This document shows positions 29,230 to 36,747 of a stretch of DNA of 64,000 bases, one piece after another. The DNA comes from Paludibacteraceae bacterium (lineage in GTDB: Bacteria > Bacteroidota > Bacteroidia > Bacteroidales > Paludibacteraceae). Both the position numbers and the translations under genes were made by a program. The first letter of the stretch is position 1. Each line of letters opens with the position of its first letter. The notes under the pieces were generated by a model. It saw only the letters and a program-made list of their open reading frames with translations, did not search any database and was not told the DNA's origin. The stretch spans positions 1-64,000 of the forward strand of contig JAKSKZ010000015.1 of NCBI GenBank assembly GCA_024401475.1, given 5' to 3'.

Positions 29230-29748
29230 TCACACTAACTTTTCTACATCGTCTGGCGACAAAGTAACAGAGCAAGCTAATAATGTATCTAATTTAATTA
29301 GAAATTTTGAATGACTAACAGAGACATCTATCAATTCTCCAATTATGCCTTTCAACTGTCCCGACTTAATAATGACGCGATCCCCTTTGGCAAACACGTC
29401 AGATTCCACATTATAAACACCATTTGTTGCATTTATGAAACGTTGAAAATTTTCCATTTGATAATCAGGAATTACCATCAACATGTTTTTATCCGCCATA
29501 TTACGCAAATAAGAAACTTGTATGCCATGAAGATTATGAAGGTCGAATGCTATACTTTTTTGCGTTCTGATGAAAATTGTATTTGGTATCAAAACAACAT
29601 CTACCTTTTTTTTTCGGTCATGCCAATTTCTCAATTCTGTTCGAATTGGCACATAAGATTCTATCCCCAAATTTGTCAATTTTAGATATATCGCTCTTTC
29701 TTGTTTAGCTCTCGTTTTTGCGACATACCAACATTTTGCCTCTGTCAT
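29230..29748 (-). CDS. UpxY-family transcription antiterminator (NusG-like)
   Basis: A 172-aa NusG paralogue. It has the N-terminal NGN-like domain (WYVAKTRAKQERAIYLKLTN; PNTIFIRT) and a C-terminal KOW domain (GDRVIIKSGQLKGIIGELID). UpxY proteins in Bacteroides bind RNA polymerase early in their own capsule operon and prevent premature termination of these very long transcripts. It is the first gene of the operon, as usual. No UpxZ-type inhibitor gene follows it here. Confidence 0.88.
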   Translation of the reverse strand: MTEAKCWYVAKTRAKQERAIYLKLTNLGIESYVPIRTELRNWHDRKKKVDVVLIPNTIFIRTQKSIAFDLHNLHGIQVSYLRNMADKNMLMVIPDYQMENFQRFINATNGVYNVESDVFAKGDRVIIKSGQLKGIIGELIDVSVSHSKFLIKLDTLLACSVTLSPDDVEKLV

Positions 29749-30048: not shown

Positions 30049-30056
30049 TACCTTTG
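30049..30056 (+). promoter_or_regulatory. ilvD operon promoter (-7 box)
   Basis: TACCTTTG matches TAnnTTTG exactly. The -33 region is a poor match. Transcription would start near 30062, about 24 nt before the leader-peptide ATG. Confidence 0.65.
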
Positions 30057-30085
30057 CAAAACAGAAAAATGGCAACATATAAAAT

Positions 30086-30145
30086 ATGAATACGACATCT
30101 CTACATACCGTCCTTCTGCTCGTGGTGGTCGTGAGCGACTGCTAA
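30086..30145 (+). CDS. ilv leader peptide (19 aa, Leu/Val-rich)
   Basis: ATG 30086 to TAA 30143-30145 encodes MNTTSLHTVLLLVVVVSDC. Eight of 19 codons are consecutive Val or Leu (GTC CTT CTG CTC GTG GTG GTC GTG), exactly what a branched-chain amino-acid attenuator leader needs. The stop codon abuts the antiterminator segment GGGAAAGG (30146-30153). The stalled or terminating ribosome would therefore decide which RNA hairpin forms upstream of ilvD. Confidence 0.82.
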   Translation: MNTTSLHTVLLLVVVVSDC

Positions 30146-30215
30146 GGGAAAGGATATGTATGCGTGTTCGCTATAAATCACAAGCCTTTCCCAATTTGGG
30201 GAAGGCTTTTGTTTT
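30146..30215 (+). terminator. ilv attenuator: antiterminator and intrinsic terminator
   Basis: Terminator: an 11-bp stem (AAGCCTTTCCC, 30182-30192, with GGGGAAGGCTT, 30198-30208), 5-nt loop, then a U-rich tail (TTTTGTTTTG). Antiterminator: GGGAAAGG (30146-30153) is the exact complement of CCTTTCCC (30185-30192), the left arm of the terminator, so the two structures exclude each other. With enough Leu/Val the ribosome reaches the stop codon, covers 30146-30153 and lets the terminator fold; on stalling at the Val/Leu codons the antiterminator forms. Confidence 0.85.
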
Positions 30216-30266: not shown

Positions 30267-32099
30267 ATGAAAATACAACTTCGCAGTGCATTCAGCACAG
30301 AGGGTCGCAGAATGGCCGGAGCAAGAGCTCTTTGGGTGGCAAATGGTATGAAGCGCGAGCAGATGGGTAAGCCTATCATCGCTATCGCCAACAGTTTTAC
30401 TCAGTTCGTGCCAGGACATACACATCTACACGAGATCGGACAGAAAGTTAAGGCAGAGATTGAAAAACTTGGTTGCTTCGCAGCCGAGTTCAACACAATC
30501 GCTATCGACGACGGTATCGCTATGGGCCACGACGGTATGCTTTACTCTCTTCCAAGCCGTGATTTGATCGCTGACTCTGTGGAGTATATGGTGAACGCTC
30601 ACAAGGCTGACGCATTGGTTTGTATTTCAAACTGTGACAAGATCACTCCAGGTATGTTGATCGCAGCTATGCGTCTTAACATCCCTACTATCTTCGTTTC
30701 AGGTGGTGCAATGGAGGCTGGTAAACTTGAGGGCAGCCACGACCTTGACCTTATCGACGCCATGATTCAGAGTGCTGACGAGTCAGTGTCTGACGAGCAG
30801 GTAGCTAAGATCGAGAACGCTGCTTGTCCAGGATGCGGATGCTGCTCAGGTATCTTCACTGCAAACTCAATGAACTGTTTGAACGAGGTGCTTGGTTTCG
30901 CTTTGCCAGGAAACGGTACTATCGTAGCCACTCACAAGAATCGTGAGCAGCTATTCATGGATGCAGCCAAGATGATCGTTGACAATGCATACAAATATTA
31001 TAGAGACGGAGATGAGAGCGTACTTCCAAGAAGCATCGCCACTCGTCAGGCTTTCTTGAATGCCATGACTCTTGATATCGCAATGGGCGGTTCTACAAAT
31101 ACAGTGCTTCACCTTCTTGCTATCGCTCAGGAGGGAGGCGTAGACTTCAAGATGGACGATATTGACTCACTTTCAAAGGTTACTCCATGTTTGTGTAAGG
31201 TTGCTCCTAACACACAGAAGTACCATATCCAGGATTTGAACCGTGCAGGTGGTATCCTTTCTATCATGAACGAGCTTGACAAGGCAGGTTTGGTTGATAG
31301 AAGCGTTAAGCGTGTCGACGGAATGACTATCGGCGAGGCTATCGACAAGTATGCGATCACAAGCCCTAATCGTTGTGAGAAGGCAGAGAAGATCTACAAG
31401 AGTACAGCAGCCAACAAGTTCTCTATCAAGATGGGTTCACAGGAGACATACTGGGATTCATTCGACACTGACCGTGCTAACGGTTGTATCCGTGACCTTG
31501 AGCACGCATACTCAAAGGACGGTGGTATGGCTATCTTGAAGGGAAATATCGCGCTTGACGGATGTGTAGTTAAGACTGCCGGCGTCGACGAGAGCATCTG
31601 GAAATTCGCTGGTCCAGCTAAGGTATTCAACTCACAGGATGACGCTTGCAAGGGTATTTTGAACGGTAGCGTCGTATCAGGTGACGTTGTTGTCATCACA
31701 CACGAGGGACCTAAGGGTGGTCCTGGTATGCAGGAGATGCTATACCCTACTTCATATATCAAGTCACGTCACCTTGGTAAGGAGTGTGCGTTGATCACAG
31801 ACGGACGTTTCTCAGGTGGTACATCTGGTTTGTCAATCGGACACATCTCTCCAGAGGCTGCAAGCGGTGGTAACATCGGTCTTGTACGCGACGGAGACAT
31901 CATCGAGATCGATATCCCAGCACGCAAGATTTCAGTTCGCTTGTCTGATGCAGAGTTGGCAGAGCGTCGCAAGGCAGAAGAGGCAAAGGGTAAGGACGCA
32001 TGGAAGCCAAAGCGCGACCGCGTCGTTTCTAAGGCTTTGAGAGCTTACGCATCAATGGTTGCGTCTGCTGATAAGGGTGGTGTTCGTATCGTAGAATAA
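30267..32099 (+). CDS. ilvD: Dihydroxy-acid dehydratase
   Basis: A 610-aa Fe-S enzyme that dehydrates dihydroxy acids to the keto acids of valine and isoleucine. Cluster-binding and active-site segments are [10 protein letters not shown] and [19 protein letters not shown], and the C-terminal [18 protein letters not shown] is intact. First gene of the ilv unit, 50 bp after the attenuator terminator, so its expression is probably set by branched-chain amino-acid supply. Codon use is strongly biased (CGT, GGT, GAC), suggesting high expression. Confidence 0.97.
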
Positions 32100-32173: not shown

Positions 32174-33865
32174 ATGAGTAATCAGATGAAAGGTGCATAC
32201 ATTCTTATGGAGAGTCTCTTGAAAGAGAATGTTGACACTATTTTTGGCTATCCTGGAGGCAGCATCATGCCTACGTTCGATGCTCTGTACGACTATATGG
32301 ACAAATTCAACTATGTCCTAACTCGTCACGAGCAAGGTGCATCACACGCAGCACAAGGATATGCACGAGTCAGCGGAAAGACTGGAGTTTGCTTAGTGAC
32401 TTCAGGACCAGGTGCGACCAACACCATCACAGGCATTGCAGACGCAATGATGGACTCCACTCCACTTGTTGTGATTGCAGGTCAGGCAGGAGCCGCATTC
32501 CTCGGTACAGACGCTTTCCAAGAGGTTGACTTAATTGGATGTACACTTCCAATCACAAAATGGTCTTACCAGATCCGTTCTGCAGCAGACATAGCCCCAG
32601 CGATAGCAAAGGCTTTCCATATTGCCAACACAGGTAGGAAAGGGCCTGTTGTGCTCGACTTCACAAAGAACGCACAGGTGGAGATGGCTGAATTCAACTA
32701 TCACAAATGCAATTTCACCCGTGGATATATTCCTTTCACTGCCATCAACCCATCGCAAATTGAGACAGCAGCCGAAATCATCAACAAGGCTGAGAAACCG
32801 CTTGCGTTGGTTGGACAAGGTGTTATCCTTGCCAATGCAGAATCTGAGTTGAAGGCATTCTTGGAGAAGGCAGACATACCTGCAGGCAGCACGCTTCTTG
32901 GTTTGTCAGCGCTTCCTTCCGGCCACCGACTAAACAAAGGTATGCTTGGAATGCACGGCAACGTCGGACCCAATATCAAGACTAACGAAGCAGACGTGAT
33001 CATCGCCATCGGTATGCGTTTCGACGACCGTGTGACAGGTGATTTGAAGACATACGCAAAGCAGGCTAAGATCGTCCACTTGGACATCGACACTGCTGAA
33101 ATGGACAAGAACGTTAAAACTACTGCAAAGGTTCTTGGCGACGTGAAGGCTTCCCTTCCTGAACTCACGCTTAAGCTTAAGGAGGCAAAACACACCCAGT
33201 GGATTGAGAGTTTCAACGAGCACGAGGCGAAGGAAGACGAGAAAGTCATCCGTCCTGAGGTTTATCCAACAGCAGGTCCATTGAAGATGGGTGAGGTTGT
33301 CCGCAAGATTTCAGAAGCAACAAACAACGAGGCCGTACTGGTAACAGACGTAGGTCAGAACCAGATCATGGCGGCTCGCTACTTCAAGTATACAAAGTCA
33401 CGCAGCGTCGTAACAAGTGGTGGACTTGGAACAATGGGATTCGGTATCCCAGCCGCAATCGGAGCCAAGATTGGAGCACCAAAGCGTACAGTATGTATGT
33501 TTGCTGGCGACGGTGGATTCCAGATGACCATCCAGGAGTTGGGAACAATCATGGAGAAGCAGATCGGCGTCAAGATGATCATTCTCAACAACAACTACCT
33601 TGGAATGGTACGTCAGTGGCAGGAGTTGTTCTTCAAGGAGAGATACTCATCTACACCGATGATGAATCCAAAGTTCAATGCTATCGCAGACGCTTACGGA
33701 ATCAAGAACAAGGAAGTCAGCACACGTGAGGAGCTTGACTCAGCAATCAAAGAGATGTTTGCCGACGACAAACCATACCTATTGGTCGCAAACTGCGAAG
33801 AGAAGGGAATGGTTTATCCAATGGTTCCAGCCGGTGAAACTGTCACAAACATTCTTTTAGGATAA
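32174..33865 (+). CDS. ilvB: Acetolactate synthase large (catalytic) subunit
   Basis: A 563-aa thiamine-diphosphate enzyme making acetolactate and acetohydroxybutyrate. It has the catalytic Glu segment LTRHEQGASHAAQGYARV, the GYPGGSIMPTFDALYD start, the FAD-binding middle domain and the cofactor motif AGDGGFQMTIQELG to NNNYLGMVRQWQ. It follows ilvD by 74 bp and precedes the regulatory subunit. Confidence 0.96.
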   Translation: MSNQMKGAYILMESLLKENVDTIFGYPGGSIMPTFDALYDYMDKFNYVLTRHEQGASHAAQGYARVSGKTGVCLVTSGPGATNTITGIADAMMDSTPLVVIAGQAGAAFLGTDAFQEVDLIGCTLPITKWSYQIRSAADIAPAIAKAFHIANTGRKGPVVLDFTKNAQVEMAEFNYHKCNFTRGYIPFTAINPSQIETAAEIINKAEKPLALVGQGVILANAESELKAFLEKADIPAGSTLLGLSALPSGHRLNKGMLGMHGNVGPNIKTNEADVIIAIGMRFDDRVTGDLKTYAKQAKIVHLDIDTAEMDKNVKTTAKVLGDVKASLPELTLKLKEAKHTQWIESFNEHEAKEDEKVIRPEVYPTAGPLKMGEVVRKISEATNNEAVLVTDVGQNQIMAARYFKYTKSRSVVTSGGLGTMGFGIPAAIGAKIGAPKRTVCMFAGDGGFQMTIQELGTIMEKQIGVKMIILNNNYLGMVRQWQELFFKERYSSTPMMNPKFNAIADAYGIKNKEVSTREELDSAIKEMFADDKPYLLVANCEEKGMVYPMVPAGETVTNILLG

Positions 33866-33983: not shown

Positions 33984-34628
33984 ATGGCAGATAATTTTAA
34001 GGCAACGCAATGCGGTAAGGATTGTCAGAAATGTAATCCTGCAGAATGCAATGATGGAAAGAAGCTGTTCACAGTAACAGTATTCTCTGAAAATCAGGTT
34101 GGCTTGCTAAACCAGATTTCCATCATCTTCACACGCCGTCGTCTAAACATAGAGAGCTTGAGCGTATCACAATCGGCTCTACCAGGAATCCATAAGTTCA
34201 CAATCACAACCATCACAGATGAGGACACCATCGAGAAGGTAGTGAAGCAAATCGACAAACGCATCGATATCATCAAGAGTTTCTATAATGATGATTCCGA
34301 CCTTGTTTATCAAGAAATCGCAATGTACAAGGTGGCCACACAAGATTTCATCAACCTTGCAGGCACAGAAGAGTTGATTAGAAAGTACAACATCCGTATT
34401 CTTGAGATCAACGAGACATGTGTTATCTTCGAGAAAACAGGTCATACAGACGAGACTCAAGGCTTGTTCAACGAATTGAGCCAGAAGCTACAGGTGCTTC
34501 AGTTCATCCGTTCAGGACGTGTTGCTATCACCAAGTCGAAGCTTGAGCGTTTGAGCGACATGCTGGCAAAATTGAATGAGCAAAAGCCTAAAGGCTACGA
34601 TGAAAGCGAAGAGTATTTCGGTCTATAA
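33984..34628 (+). CDS. ilvN: Acetolactate synthase small (regulatory) subunit, with Cys-rich N-terminal extension
   Basis: A 214-aa ACT-domain regulator that binds valine-type effectors and activates the large subunit. The ACT domain starts at KLFTVTVFSENQVGLLNQIS and the second domain ends in SGRVAITKSKLERLSD. Unusually, about 25 residues precede it, with a compact cysteine motif C-x3-C-x2-C-x4-C (CGKDCQKCNPAEC). The extension is in frame with a good start and no alternative closer ATG, so it is probably translated. Confidence 0.93.
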   Translation: MADNFKATQCGKDCQKCNPAECNDGKKLFTVTVFSENQVGLLNQISIIFTRRRLNIESLSVSQSALPGIHKFTITTITDEDTIEKVVKQIDKRIDIIKSFYNDDSDLVYQEIAMYKVATQDFINLAGTEELIRKYNIRILEINETCVIFEKTGHTDETQGLFNELSQKLQVLQFIRSGRVAITKSKLERLSDMLAKLNEQKPKGYDESEEYFGL

Positions 34629-34644
34629 ATAAGGAATCATTGAA

Positions 34645-35415
34645 ATGGAGAATAGCAAGTTAATTGGAGAATACCCTTTCAAAGTGTTGCCTTTCGAGGT
34701 GGACTTCAGGCAAAAACTAACACTTCCCCACCTCACCAACTACATTCTCAATAGTGCAGGCTATCACGCAGACAGTTTGGGTTTTGGCATAAAAGATGTT
34801 AAAGAGAGCAATAAATCTTGGGTAATCACCCGACTTGCTATTGAAATCAACCGATACCCCAAAAACGACGAGAAGATACGAGTTCGGACTTGGGTGGACA
34901 AAGTGATAAGAACATTCTCCCTTCGTAACTTCGCCTTTCTTTCTCAAGACGGAACGGAGGTGTTGGGATATGCCAATTCCGTATGGGCAATGATTGATAT
35001 AGACAATCGCCGTCCGACCGATTTGACGCAAATCATTCCATCCGAAATATTCTGCGACGAACCATGCCCGATTGCAAAAGTTGGGAAATTCCCCGCTGCC
35101 GACGTGGATGAATTCGACTCATTCTCAGTAAAATACAGCGACGTAGACTTCAACCAACACTTGAACAGCAGTAAATATATCGAGCACATTATTGACTCAT
35201 TCACCCTTTTCAAGTTCAGCAAGCGCGACATCAAACGATTCGAAATCGAATACATCAACGAATCTCTTTTTGGAGAAAGAATTGCCATCCATAAAAAAGA
35301 GGTGGAAGCTGGCAAATTCGTAATCGAACTTAAAAACCAAGCTGGAACGACAATATGCAAGAGCAAAGTGCTTTTTAGTGACCAAACGCTCAACGAAGAG
35401 TACATCATCAAATAA
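34645..35415 (+). CDS. Acyl-ACP thioesterase (FatA-like)
   Basis: A 256-aa double hot-dog protein of the acyl-[acyl-carrier-protein] thioesterase family, common in Bacteroidetes. Visible are ITRLAIEINRYPK and RVRTWVDKVIRTFSLRNF in the first domain and the catalytic-region segment YSDVDFNQHLNSSKYIEHI in the second. It frees fatty acids from ACP. It starts 17 bp after ilvN, so it is co-transcribed with the ilv genes. Confidence 0.87.
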   Translation: MENSKLIGEYPFKVLPFEVDFRQKLTLPHLTNYILNSAGYHADSLGFGIKDVKESNKSWVITRLAIEINRYPKNDEKIRVRTWVDKVIRTFSLRNFAFLSQDGTEVLGYANSVWAMIDIDNRRPTDLTQIIPSEIFCDEPCPIAKVGKFPAADVDEFDSFSVKYSDVDFNQHLNSSKYIEHIIDSFTLFKFSKRDIKRFEIEYINESLFGERIAIHKKEVEAGKFVIELKNQAGTTICKSKVLFSDQTLNEEYIIK

Positions 35416-35461: not shown

Positions 35462-35494
35462 TTGGTGTTCTAACAGAAAAAAGCATTAAATTTG
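35462..35494 (+). promoter_or_regulatory. ilvC promoter
   Basis: TAAATTTG (35487-35494) matches TAnnTTTG, with TTGG about 21 bp upstream (35462-35465). It gives a leader of about 150 nt before the ilvC ATG. Confidence 0.62.
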
Positions 35495-35654: not shown

Positions 35655-36698
35655 ATGGCAGAAATGAATTTTGGCGGCGTAATCGAGAACGTTGTTACCC
35701 GCGAAGAATTTCCATTGGAGAAAGCCCGCGAAGTTTTGAAGAACGAAACTATCGCAGTTATCGGATATGGTGTACAAGGTCCTGGTCAATCAATGAACTT
35801 GCGTGACAACGGATTCAACGTAATCGTTGGTCAACGTCCAGGTAAGACATACGACAAGGCAGTAGCTGACGGATGGGTTCCAGGTGAGACTTTGTTCGGA
35901 ATCGAAGAGGCTTGTCAAAAGGCAACTATCATCCAAGTTCTTCTTTCTGACGCAGCTCAAATCGAGTGCTGGCCAATGATCAAGAAGTACTTGACTCCTG
36001 GTAAGACTTTGTATTTCTCTCACGGTTTTGCTATTACTTGGAATGACCGTACAGGCATCGTTCCTCCAAAGGATGTTGATGTTATCTTGATCGCTCCTAA
36101 GGGATCTGGTACATCTCTTCGCCGTATGTTCGTTCAAGGCCGTGGTTTGAACTCTTCATACGCTATCTATCAAGACGCTTCTGGCCACGCTTGGGAGAAG
36201 GTTATCGCTCTTGGTATCGGTGTAGGTTCAGGTTACTTGTTCGAGACTACTTTCACTAAGGAGGCTACTTCAGACTTGACTGGTGAGCGTGGTTCTTTGA
36301 TGGGTGCTATCCAAGGTTTGCTTTTGGCTCAATACGAGGTTCTTCGTGAGAATGGCCACTCTCCATCAGAGGCATTCAACGAGACTGTTGAGGAGTTGAC
36401 TCAATCTTTGATGCCGCTCTTCGCTGAGAACGGTATGGATTGGATGTACGCTAACTGCTCTACTACTGCTCAACGTGGTGCTTTGGACTGGATGACTCCT
36501 TTCCACGACGCTATCAAGCCAGTTATGCAAAAGCTTTACAACTCAGTTATCACTGGTAACGAGGCTCAAATCTCTATCGATTCTAACTCTAAGAAGGACT
36601 ACCGTGCTGGATTGGAGAAAGAGTTGGCTGCTCTTCGCGAGAGCGAGATGTGGCGTGCTGGTGCTGTAGTTCGTAAACTTCGTCCAGAGAACAACTAA
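35655..36698 (+). CDS. ilvC: Ketol-acid reductoisomerase (NADP+)
   Basis: A 347-aa enzyme from ATG 35655 (MAEMNFGGVIENVVTREEF); the frame is open further upstream but that stretch is leader-like. It isomerises and reduces acetolactate to dihydroxyisovalerate. The NADP-binding GYGVQGPGQSMNLRDNG and the metal-binding KEATSDLTGERG with following SPSEAFNETVEELTQ are present. Codon bias is strong. It has its own promoter and ends in a hairpin terminator that is duplicated 1.15 kb downstream. Confidence 0.96.
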   Translation: MAEMNFGGVIENVVTREEFPLEKAREVLKNETIAVIGYGVQGPGQSMNLRDNGFNVIVGQRPGKTYDKAVADGWVPGETLFGIEEACQKATIIQVLLSDAAQIECWPMIKKYLTPGKTLYFSHGFAITWNDRTGIVPPKDVDVILIAPKGSGTSLRRMFVQGRGLNSSYAIYQDASGHAWEKVIALGIGVGSGYLFETTFTKEATSDLTGERGSLMGAIQGLLLAQYEVLRENGHSPSEAFNETVEELTQSLMPLFAENGMDWMYANCSTTAQRGALDWMTPFHDAIKPVMQKLYNSVITGNEAQISIDSNSKKDYRAGLEKELAALRESEMWRAGAVVRKLRPENN

Positions 36699-36721
36699 TC
36701 ATTGTTGCTTATATAAAGAGG

Positions 36722-36747
36722 AAGGCGGTCCAAATGGATCGCCTTTT
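36722..36747 (+). terminator. ilvC terminator, first copy of a 26-bp direct repeat
   Basis: Stem AAGGCG / CGCCTTTT with loop around GTCCAAATGGAT; a further ATCC/GGAT pairing is possible. The identical 26 bp occur again at 37874-37899 after the DUF1016 gene. Confidence 0.75.

Follow-up and report, generated by a model that had tools for sequence, protein, structure and literature searches.

A predicted ribosome-mediated attenuator of the classical type upstream of ilvD in Bacteroidales

Our analysis describes a ribosome-controlled RNA on/off switch of the classical trp/ilv type, which lies ahead of branched-chain amino acid (BCAA) genes in a gut-type bacterium of the family Paludibacteraceae. 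The window, by which we mean the whole 64,000-nucleotide stretch of DNA that was analysed, carries at positions 30049-30215 an element that we regard with high confidence as a ribosome-mediated attenuator; it would sense charged tRNA-Val and tRNA-Leu and control ilvD, ilvB, ilvN and a thioesterase gene, and probably part of the transcription of ilvC. The anatomy of this element, its conservation, the compensatory changes in its stems and a switch of its fold in silico were all observed here. The mechanism is of a known kind, and leader-peptide attenuation has already been reported in the phylum.

Anatomy of the leader region

The attenuator begins with TATACCTTTG, a Bacteroidota-type promoter with its -7 element TAnnTTTG (TACCTTTG) at 30049-30056 of the forward strand, on which all features of the unit lie. 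Of 101 related leaders, 93 have this motif within the 70 nt that precede their ATG, against 7.0 expected from shuffles. The putative leader ORF (30086-30145) runs from an ATG at 30086 to a TAA at 30143-30145 and has 19 codons before the stop (MNTTSLHTVLLLVVVVSDC); BCAA-rich leaders occupy the equivalent place in relatives. Its codons 9-16 (30110-30133, VLLLVVVV) form a run of eight consecutive codons, all for the valine and leucine whose biosynthetic genes follow. The promoter, the 19-residue leader and the eight Val/Leu codons had all been proposed in an earlier, sequence-only reading of this DNA, and each is found where it was placed. A further ORF of six codons, MATYKI (30069-30089), overlaps the leader start as ATGA; it is probably a chance occurrence, because it is absent in the same-genus genome G003 (L002).

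Four RNA segments follow one another in and behind this ORF. Segment 1 (TACATACCGTCCTTCTGCTC, 30102-30121) lies inside the leader codons and has segment 2 as its partner in the predicted fold. Segment 2 (GGGAAAGG, 30146-30153) adjoins the stop codon on its 3' side and is the exact reverse complement of segment 3 (CCTTTCCC, 30185-30192), with a duplex energy of -15.0 kcal/mol; the 8-nt complement claimed from the letters alone is thus confirmed. Segment 3 is the left arm common to the antiterminator (2:3) and the terminator (3:4), and sequence, duplex energies and column pairing agree on a mutually exclusive antiterminator just 3' of the stop codon. The intrinsic terminator with its U-rich tail (30182-30215) stands between the leader ORF and ilvD, as indicated by a terminator scan and by covariation in relatives; its stem spans 30182-30208 and is followed by TTTTGTTTT. 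The terminator and tail are as first described, with a stem of 12 pairs by the scan, not the 11 bp originally given.

When the transcript is folded as far as the terminator, it gives a strong 1:2 hairpin, the pause or protector stem (30084-30174), in which 30084-30131 pairs with 30136-30174 at -31.2 kcal/mol. Within it the partners of GGGAAAGG are GTCCTT and CTC, both from the Val/Leu codons, and the hairpin is closed by TACAT/ATGTA plus flanks. Its competition with the 2:3 pairing is seen in the fold, in pairing permutations among relatives and in folding with a masked ribosome. The sequence-only reading had found no separate 1:2 pause hairpin and had called the design minimal; this part of it is overturned by the hairpin found here, and the region is therefore a complete classical four-segment attenuator. 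The fold z-score of 30049-30215 is -5.0, and 0 of 200 shuffles fold equally well.

BCAA genes with T-boxes are known from Firmicutes, and an RNA that itself binds uncharged tRNA or a metabolite, with the short ORF merely incidental, has to be weighed for this region also. Riboswitches for ppGpp precede ilv genes in some other bacteria (PMC10272879). The search of Rfam at the window returned no match up to E 10 except chance-level ones and no T-box up to that value, and in five relatives it gave no match at the gathering threshold; the T-box and riboswitch readings were rejected on these results. What is conserved, moreover, is a run of BCAA codons fixed between the segments, with the primary sequence free to change and no aptamer core, and we consider a riboswitch or T-box extremely improbable.

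Conservation and covariation in relatives

With only the leader region as query, a DNA search did not reach beyond the genus, its remaining matches being promoter-like and AT-rich, and relatives were therefore gathered through IlvD; upstream regions were collected from 90 genomes of the family, 29 of the order, 29 elsewhere in the phylum and 80 named loci. A fixed rule was applied to these: an ATG-initiated ORF of 10-35 codons, at least 6 of 8 I/L/V, and a terminator 15-70 nt past the stop. By this rule a leader with its terminator precedes ilvD in 56/90 same-family genomes, in 23/29 genomes sampled across the order Bacteroidales, in 24/79 named loci and in 4/29 loci outside Bacteroidales; it was satisfied by 0/1135 dinucleotide shuffles and by 1/592 unrelated genomic stretches. 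The 34 of 90 family loci that lack a leader under the rule count against the attenuator reading. Taken together, the upstream sequences indicate that the ilvD attenuator is common to the order Bacteroidales. Examples are found in Bacteroides graminisolvens (L121) and Phocaeicola faecalis (L124, with 5 of 8 I/L/V), and within the genus in G002 (MNKTSQHNDLLLSVVVSDC, L032) and G003 (L002). The same-genus genome G001, which is 100% complete, has no ilvD match at E <= 1e-30, and leuA and hisG are present in it.

Relatives keep the BCAA run and exchange Val, Leu and Ile for one another within it. A leader that is a small hydrophobic protein with its own function, and hairpins that only end its transcript, would accord with the hydrophobic character and conserved composition of the peptide, and a trans-acting leader peptide, peTrpL, offers a precedent (PMC7298713). 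Against this, conservation outside the BCAA run is weak, peptide length ranges from about 13 to 31 residues, and the covariation of the 2:3 arms would be left unexplained, so that we give such a function hardly any credence.

That covariation is extensive. The arms GGGAAAGG/CCTTTCCC of the window are replaced by the compensated pairs AAGAATGG/CCATTCT in L223, L225 and L227, AATCGG/CCGATT in L228 and L229, GGAGGGC/GCCCTCC in L214, GTGGAAAGG/CCTTTCCAC in L202 and GAAGAAAGG/CCTTTCTTC in L161 and L218. The mean energy of a leader's own 2:3 duplex is -13.5 kcal/mol, compared with -11.1 kcal/mol for mismatched partners, and 0/20000 permutations were as good, although this row-permutation control removes relatedness incompletely. 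RNAalifold returned no structure from the MAFFT alignments, either of the whole leader or of the 2:3 region, owing to gaps, and the diverged set aligns poorly along the whole leader; pairing was accordingly scored in named columns and through duplex energies. In a MAFFT alignment that took no account of pairing, the paired share of the 2:3 columns is 86% and drops to 45-65% if they are shifted by 1-3 columns; for the 3:4 stem it is 98%, and double changes occur at 10/10 of its pairs among 70 relatives. These counts argue that both pairings are maintained by compensatory changes. The 1:2 hairpin is also present in the representatives that were folded, and a leader's own 1:2 pairing is stronger than all 5000 permutations; when the comparison is with synonymous recoding, just 32% of leaders reach significance individually (p<=0.05). 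The bases of the coding run also serve the RNA stems, and some of the codon conservation is therefore due to RNA pairing. The sequence-only reading had staked its case on a conserved Leu/Val run and compensatory changes in relatives, and it withstands this comparison, as I/L/V runs are kept and the 2:3 and 3:4 arms change together.

The same data bear on the view that the stem is a constitutive or partial terminator behind a chance ORF. Its A-rich and T-rich flanks could serve the other strand, on which the upstream gene lies; yet the set of promoter, ORF, segment 2 and terminator is found as a whole across the order, no shuffle satisfied the rule for leader and terminator, and the covariation of segment 2 with segment 3 would be superfluous in a plain terminator. 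We judge a plain terminator very unlikely.

In five leaders (L122, L125, L131, L206 and L210) the ORF extends across the stretch where segment 2 usually lies and stops only beyond it, and a finishing ribosome would then not cover segment 2 in the usual way; such leaders (for example L122, L125, L131 and L206) fit the simple model less well, and we propose that all five are variants or have a shifted stop. Possible ilvD leaders of another type were noted outside Bacteroidales in L233, L243 and L249, and more weakly in L245 and L250, mostly in family f127; an example from the phylum sample reads MLGIVVVSPVVKPQVSLSVL, then TGAACC...GCCG.

Predicted switching and comparison with known attenuators

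The behaviour of the switch was modelled by ribosome-mask folding, in which the transcript ends before segment 4, the ribosome footprint is masked and the probability of the antiterminator (2:3) is computed. In the window this probability is 0.02 without a ribosome, rises to 0.98-1.00 when one of codons 9-14 is in the A site, falls to 0.16 and 0.05 at codons 15 and 16, and is 0.00 with the ribosome at the stop codon. On this modelling the effective sensors in the window would be Val9, Leu10-12 and Val13-14, and the claim that a Val or Leu stall frees the antiterminator is reproduced in its logic (P about 1.0 at codons 9-14). Across 95 distinct leaders the mean probability of 2:3 pairing is 0.40 without a ribosome, 0.82 with a ribosome stalled in the I/L/V run and 0.13 at the stop; in L121 and L229 the 2:3 pairing is predicted instead of 1:2 without a ribosome, which counts against the simple model. 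The predicted behaviour in silico is that of a classical attenuator.

Our data suggest a model in which, when no translation takes place, the 1:2 hairpin would form, segment 3 would be left for segment 4 and transcription would end at about 30215. With valine and leucine ample, the ribosome would reach the stop codon and cover segment 2, and the terminator (3:4) would form. When either amino acid is scarce, the ribosome would stall on codons 9-14 and block segment 1; pairing of segments 2 and 3 would then precede the synthesis of segment 4, and RNA polymerase would enter ilvD. Stalling, termination and the response to amino acids in the cell are what we infer from the anatomy and the folding.

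That ilv and leu genes can be under ribosome-mediated attenuation is textbook knowledge from enteric bacteria. The enterobacterial ilv/leu, trp and his attenuators share with the window, in their general anatomy, a leader ORF with cognate codons, the 1:2, 2:3 and 3:4 pairings and a terminator upstream of the cognate genes. In contrast to them, the window has the Bacteroidota promoter TAnnTTTG, an ilvD-first operon that includes an acyl-ACP thioesterase gene, and a leader without an Ile codon, though Ile is common in its relatives. In Corynebacterium a uORF-based ilvB motif has been described and was suggested to occur in other phyla (PMC10272879). The ilvB-II/ilvBNC attenuator and the ilvB-OMG motif resemble the window in having a BCAA-rich uORF, a terminator and an antiterminator upstream of acetohydroxyacid synthase genes (PMC10272879, PMC11857589); they precede ilvB, whereas the element of the window precedes ilvD, their consensus model is a different one, and the window matches no Rfam family. 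Closer in phylogeny, leader-peptide attenuators have been reported in general terms for amino-acid operons of Flavobacterium psychrophilum (PMC9723704), and long 5'UTRs of Bacteroides thetaiotaomicron are said to contain sORFs "reminiscent of leader peptides" (PMC7366714). As far as the available portions of these two sources go, phylum and proposed mechanism are shared with the window, no ilvD leader is named, and the conserved Flavobacterium elements include pheA and hisG. An order-wide ilvD attenuator of Bacteroidales is undescribed in the literature searched, and one comparative study of attenuation may cover it. This study of attenuation in bacteria, by Lopatovskaya and colleagues in 2010, may list Bacteroidetes cases.

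The downstream operon and its likely partial replacement

Pfam places the genes for the sensed amino acids directly behind the leader: ilvD, for dihydroxy-acid dehydratase (30267-32099; PF00920, PF24877), ilvB and ilvN, for the large and small subunits of acetohydroxyacid synthase (32174-33865, TPP_enzyme N/M/C; 33984-34628, PF10369, PF22629), and ilvC, for ketol-acid reductoisomerase (35655-36698; PF07991, PF01450). Between ilvN and ilvC lies a gene for an acyl-ACP thioesterase (34645-35415; PF01643, PF20791; nearest solved structure 2ess), as it does within the ilv operon of many relatives; the order ilvB-ilvN-thioesterase-ilvC occurs in 18 named loci, 11 of which belong to the 26 named loci with a leader. 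A link of this thioesterase to branched-chain fatty acids is possible. The sequence-only reading had made the thioesterase gene the last of the unit, under the control of the attenuator; it is probably cotranscribed, but an end at this point is unclear, as ilvC follows and the next strong terminator-like hairpin, which would end the unit, lies at 36720-36747. The box TAAATTTG (35487-35494) is likely a second promoter, for ilvC, and occurs in the matching intergenic gap of G002 also, which suggests that ilvC may have its own promoter besides.

The genes behind the attenuator have a different affinity from their surroundings. Between about 30251 and about 34570 the window shares 90-96% DNA identity with G148, of genus g19, compared with 70-73% for G002 of its own genus, and in the ilvD tree it falls inside g19, adjoining G148. 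The leader follows its own genus (81% identity to G002, 89% to G003), as does ilvC (91% identity to G002), and the g19 loci carry no leader ahead of ilvD. The C-terminal tail of IlvN, LNEQKPKGYDESEEYFGL, is like that of G002 and unlike that of the G148 protein, which ends IEAHKMMYE; IlvN looks chimeric at its C-terminus. The simplest reading of these sequences would be that ilvD-ilvB-ilvN was replaced in place, likely by recombination, and that the resident attenuator was left in charge. In G003, too, the leader is combined with a g19-like ilvD start (98.5% over 133 nt), and this speaks against a simple assembly error. We lean, with some reserve, towards the view that an uncatalogued, ancestral, order-wide ilvD attenuator of Bacteroidales has been kept here, that the ilvD-ilvB-ilvN genes behind it were swapped for copies from an attenuator-less genus by recombination at the gap between terminator and ATG and inside ilvN, and that foreign genes have thus come under Val/Leu control.

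Similar leaders stand before other biosynthetic genes. Upstream of hisG in the same genome (L301, G000:C10) there is a His leader, MITFIHHIHHHYQR, followed by a terminator, and similar ones were seen in L289, L290, L300, L302, L304 and L305. BCAA-rich leaders with terminators lie upstream of leuA in relatives (L263, L264, L265, L268, L272 and L274; for example MNKNYLHILLLGIIILLQNK), and no BCAA-rich leader was found upstream of leuA in the genome of the window (L275). These His and leu leaders suggest that attenuation is a general strategy in this genome or its relatives. On the minus strand of the window, at 29230-29748, a gene for a NusG-N-like protein (MTEAKCWYVAKTRAKQERAIYLKL...), which by eye resembles UpxY-type antiterminators, heads a divergent gene cluster that, also by eye, looks sugar- or capsule-related.

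Bacteroidales dominate the gut and start translation mostly without Shine-Dalgarno sequences, and the extent of attenuation in this order is little documented. The roughly 100 ilvD leaders constitute a ready covariance family and could serve in gut bacteria as a simple reporter of the nutrient response. They also provide a test of the spacing between ribosome and RNA polymerase in Bacteroidota, because classical attenuation needs the two to be coupled.
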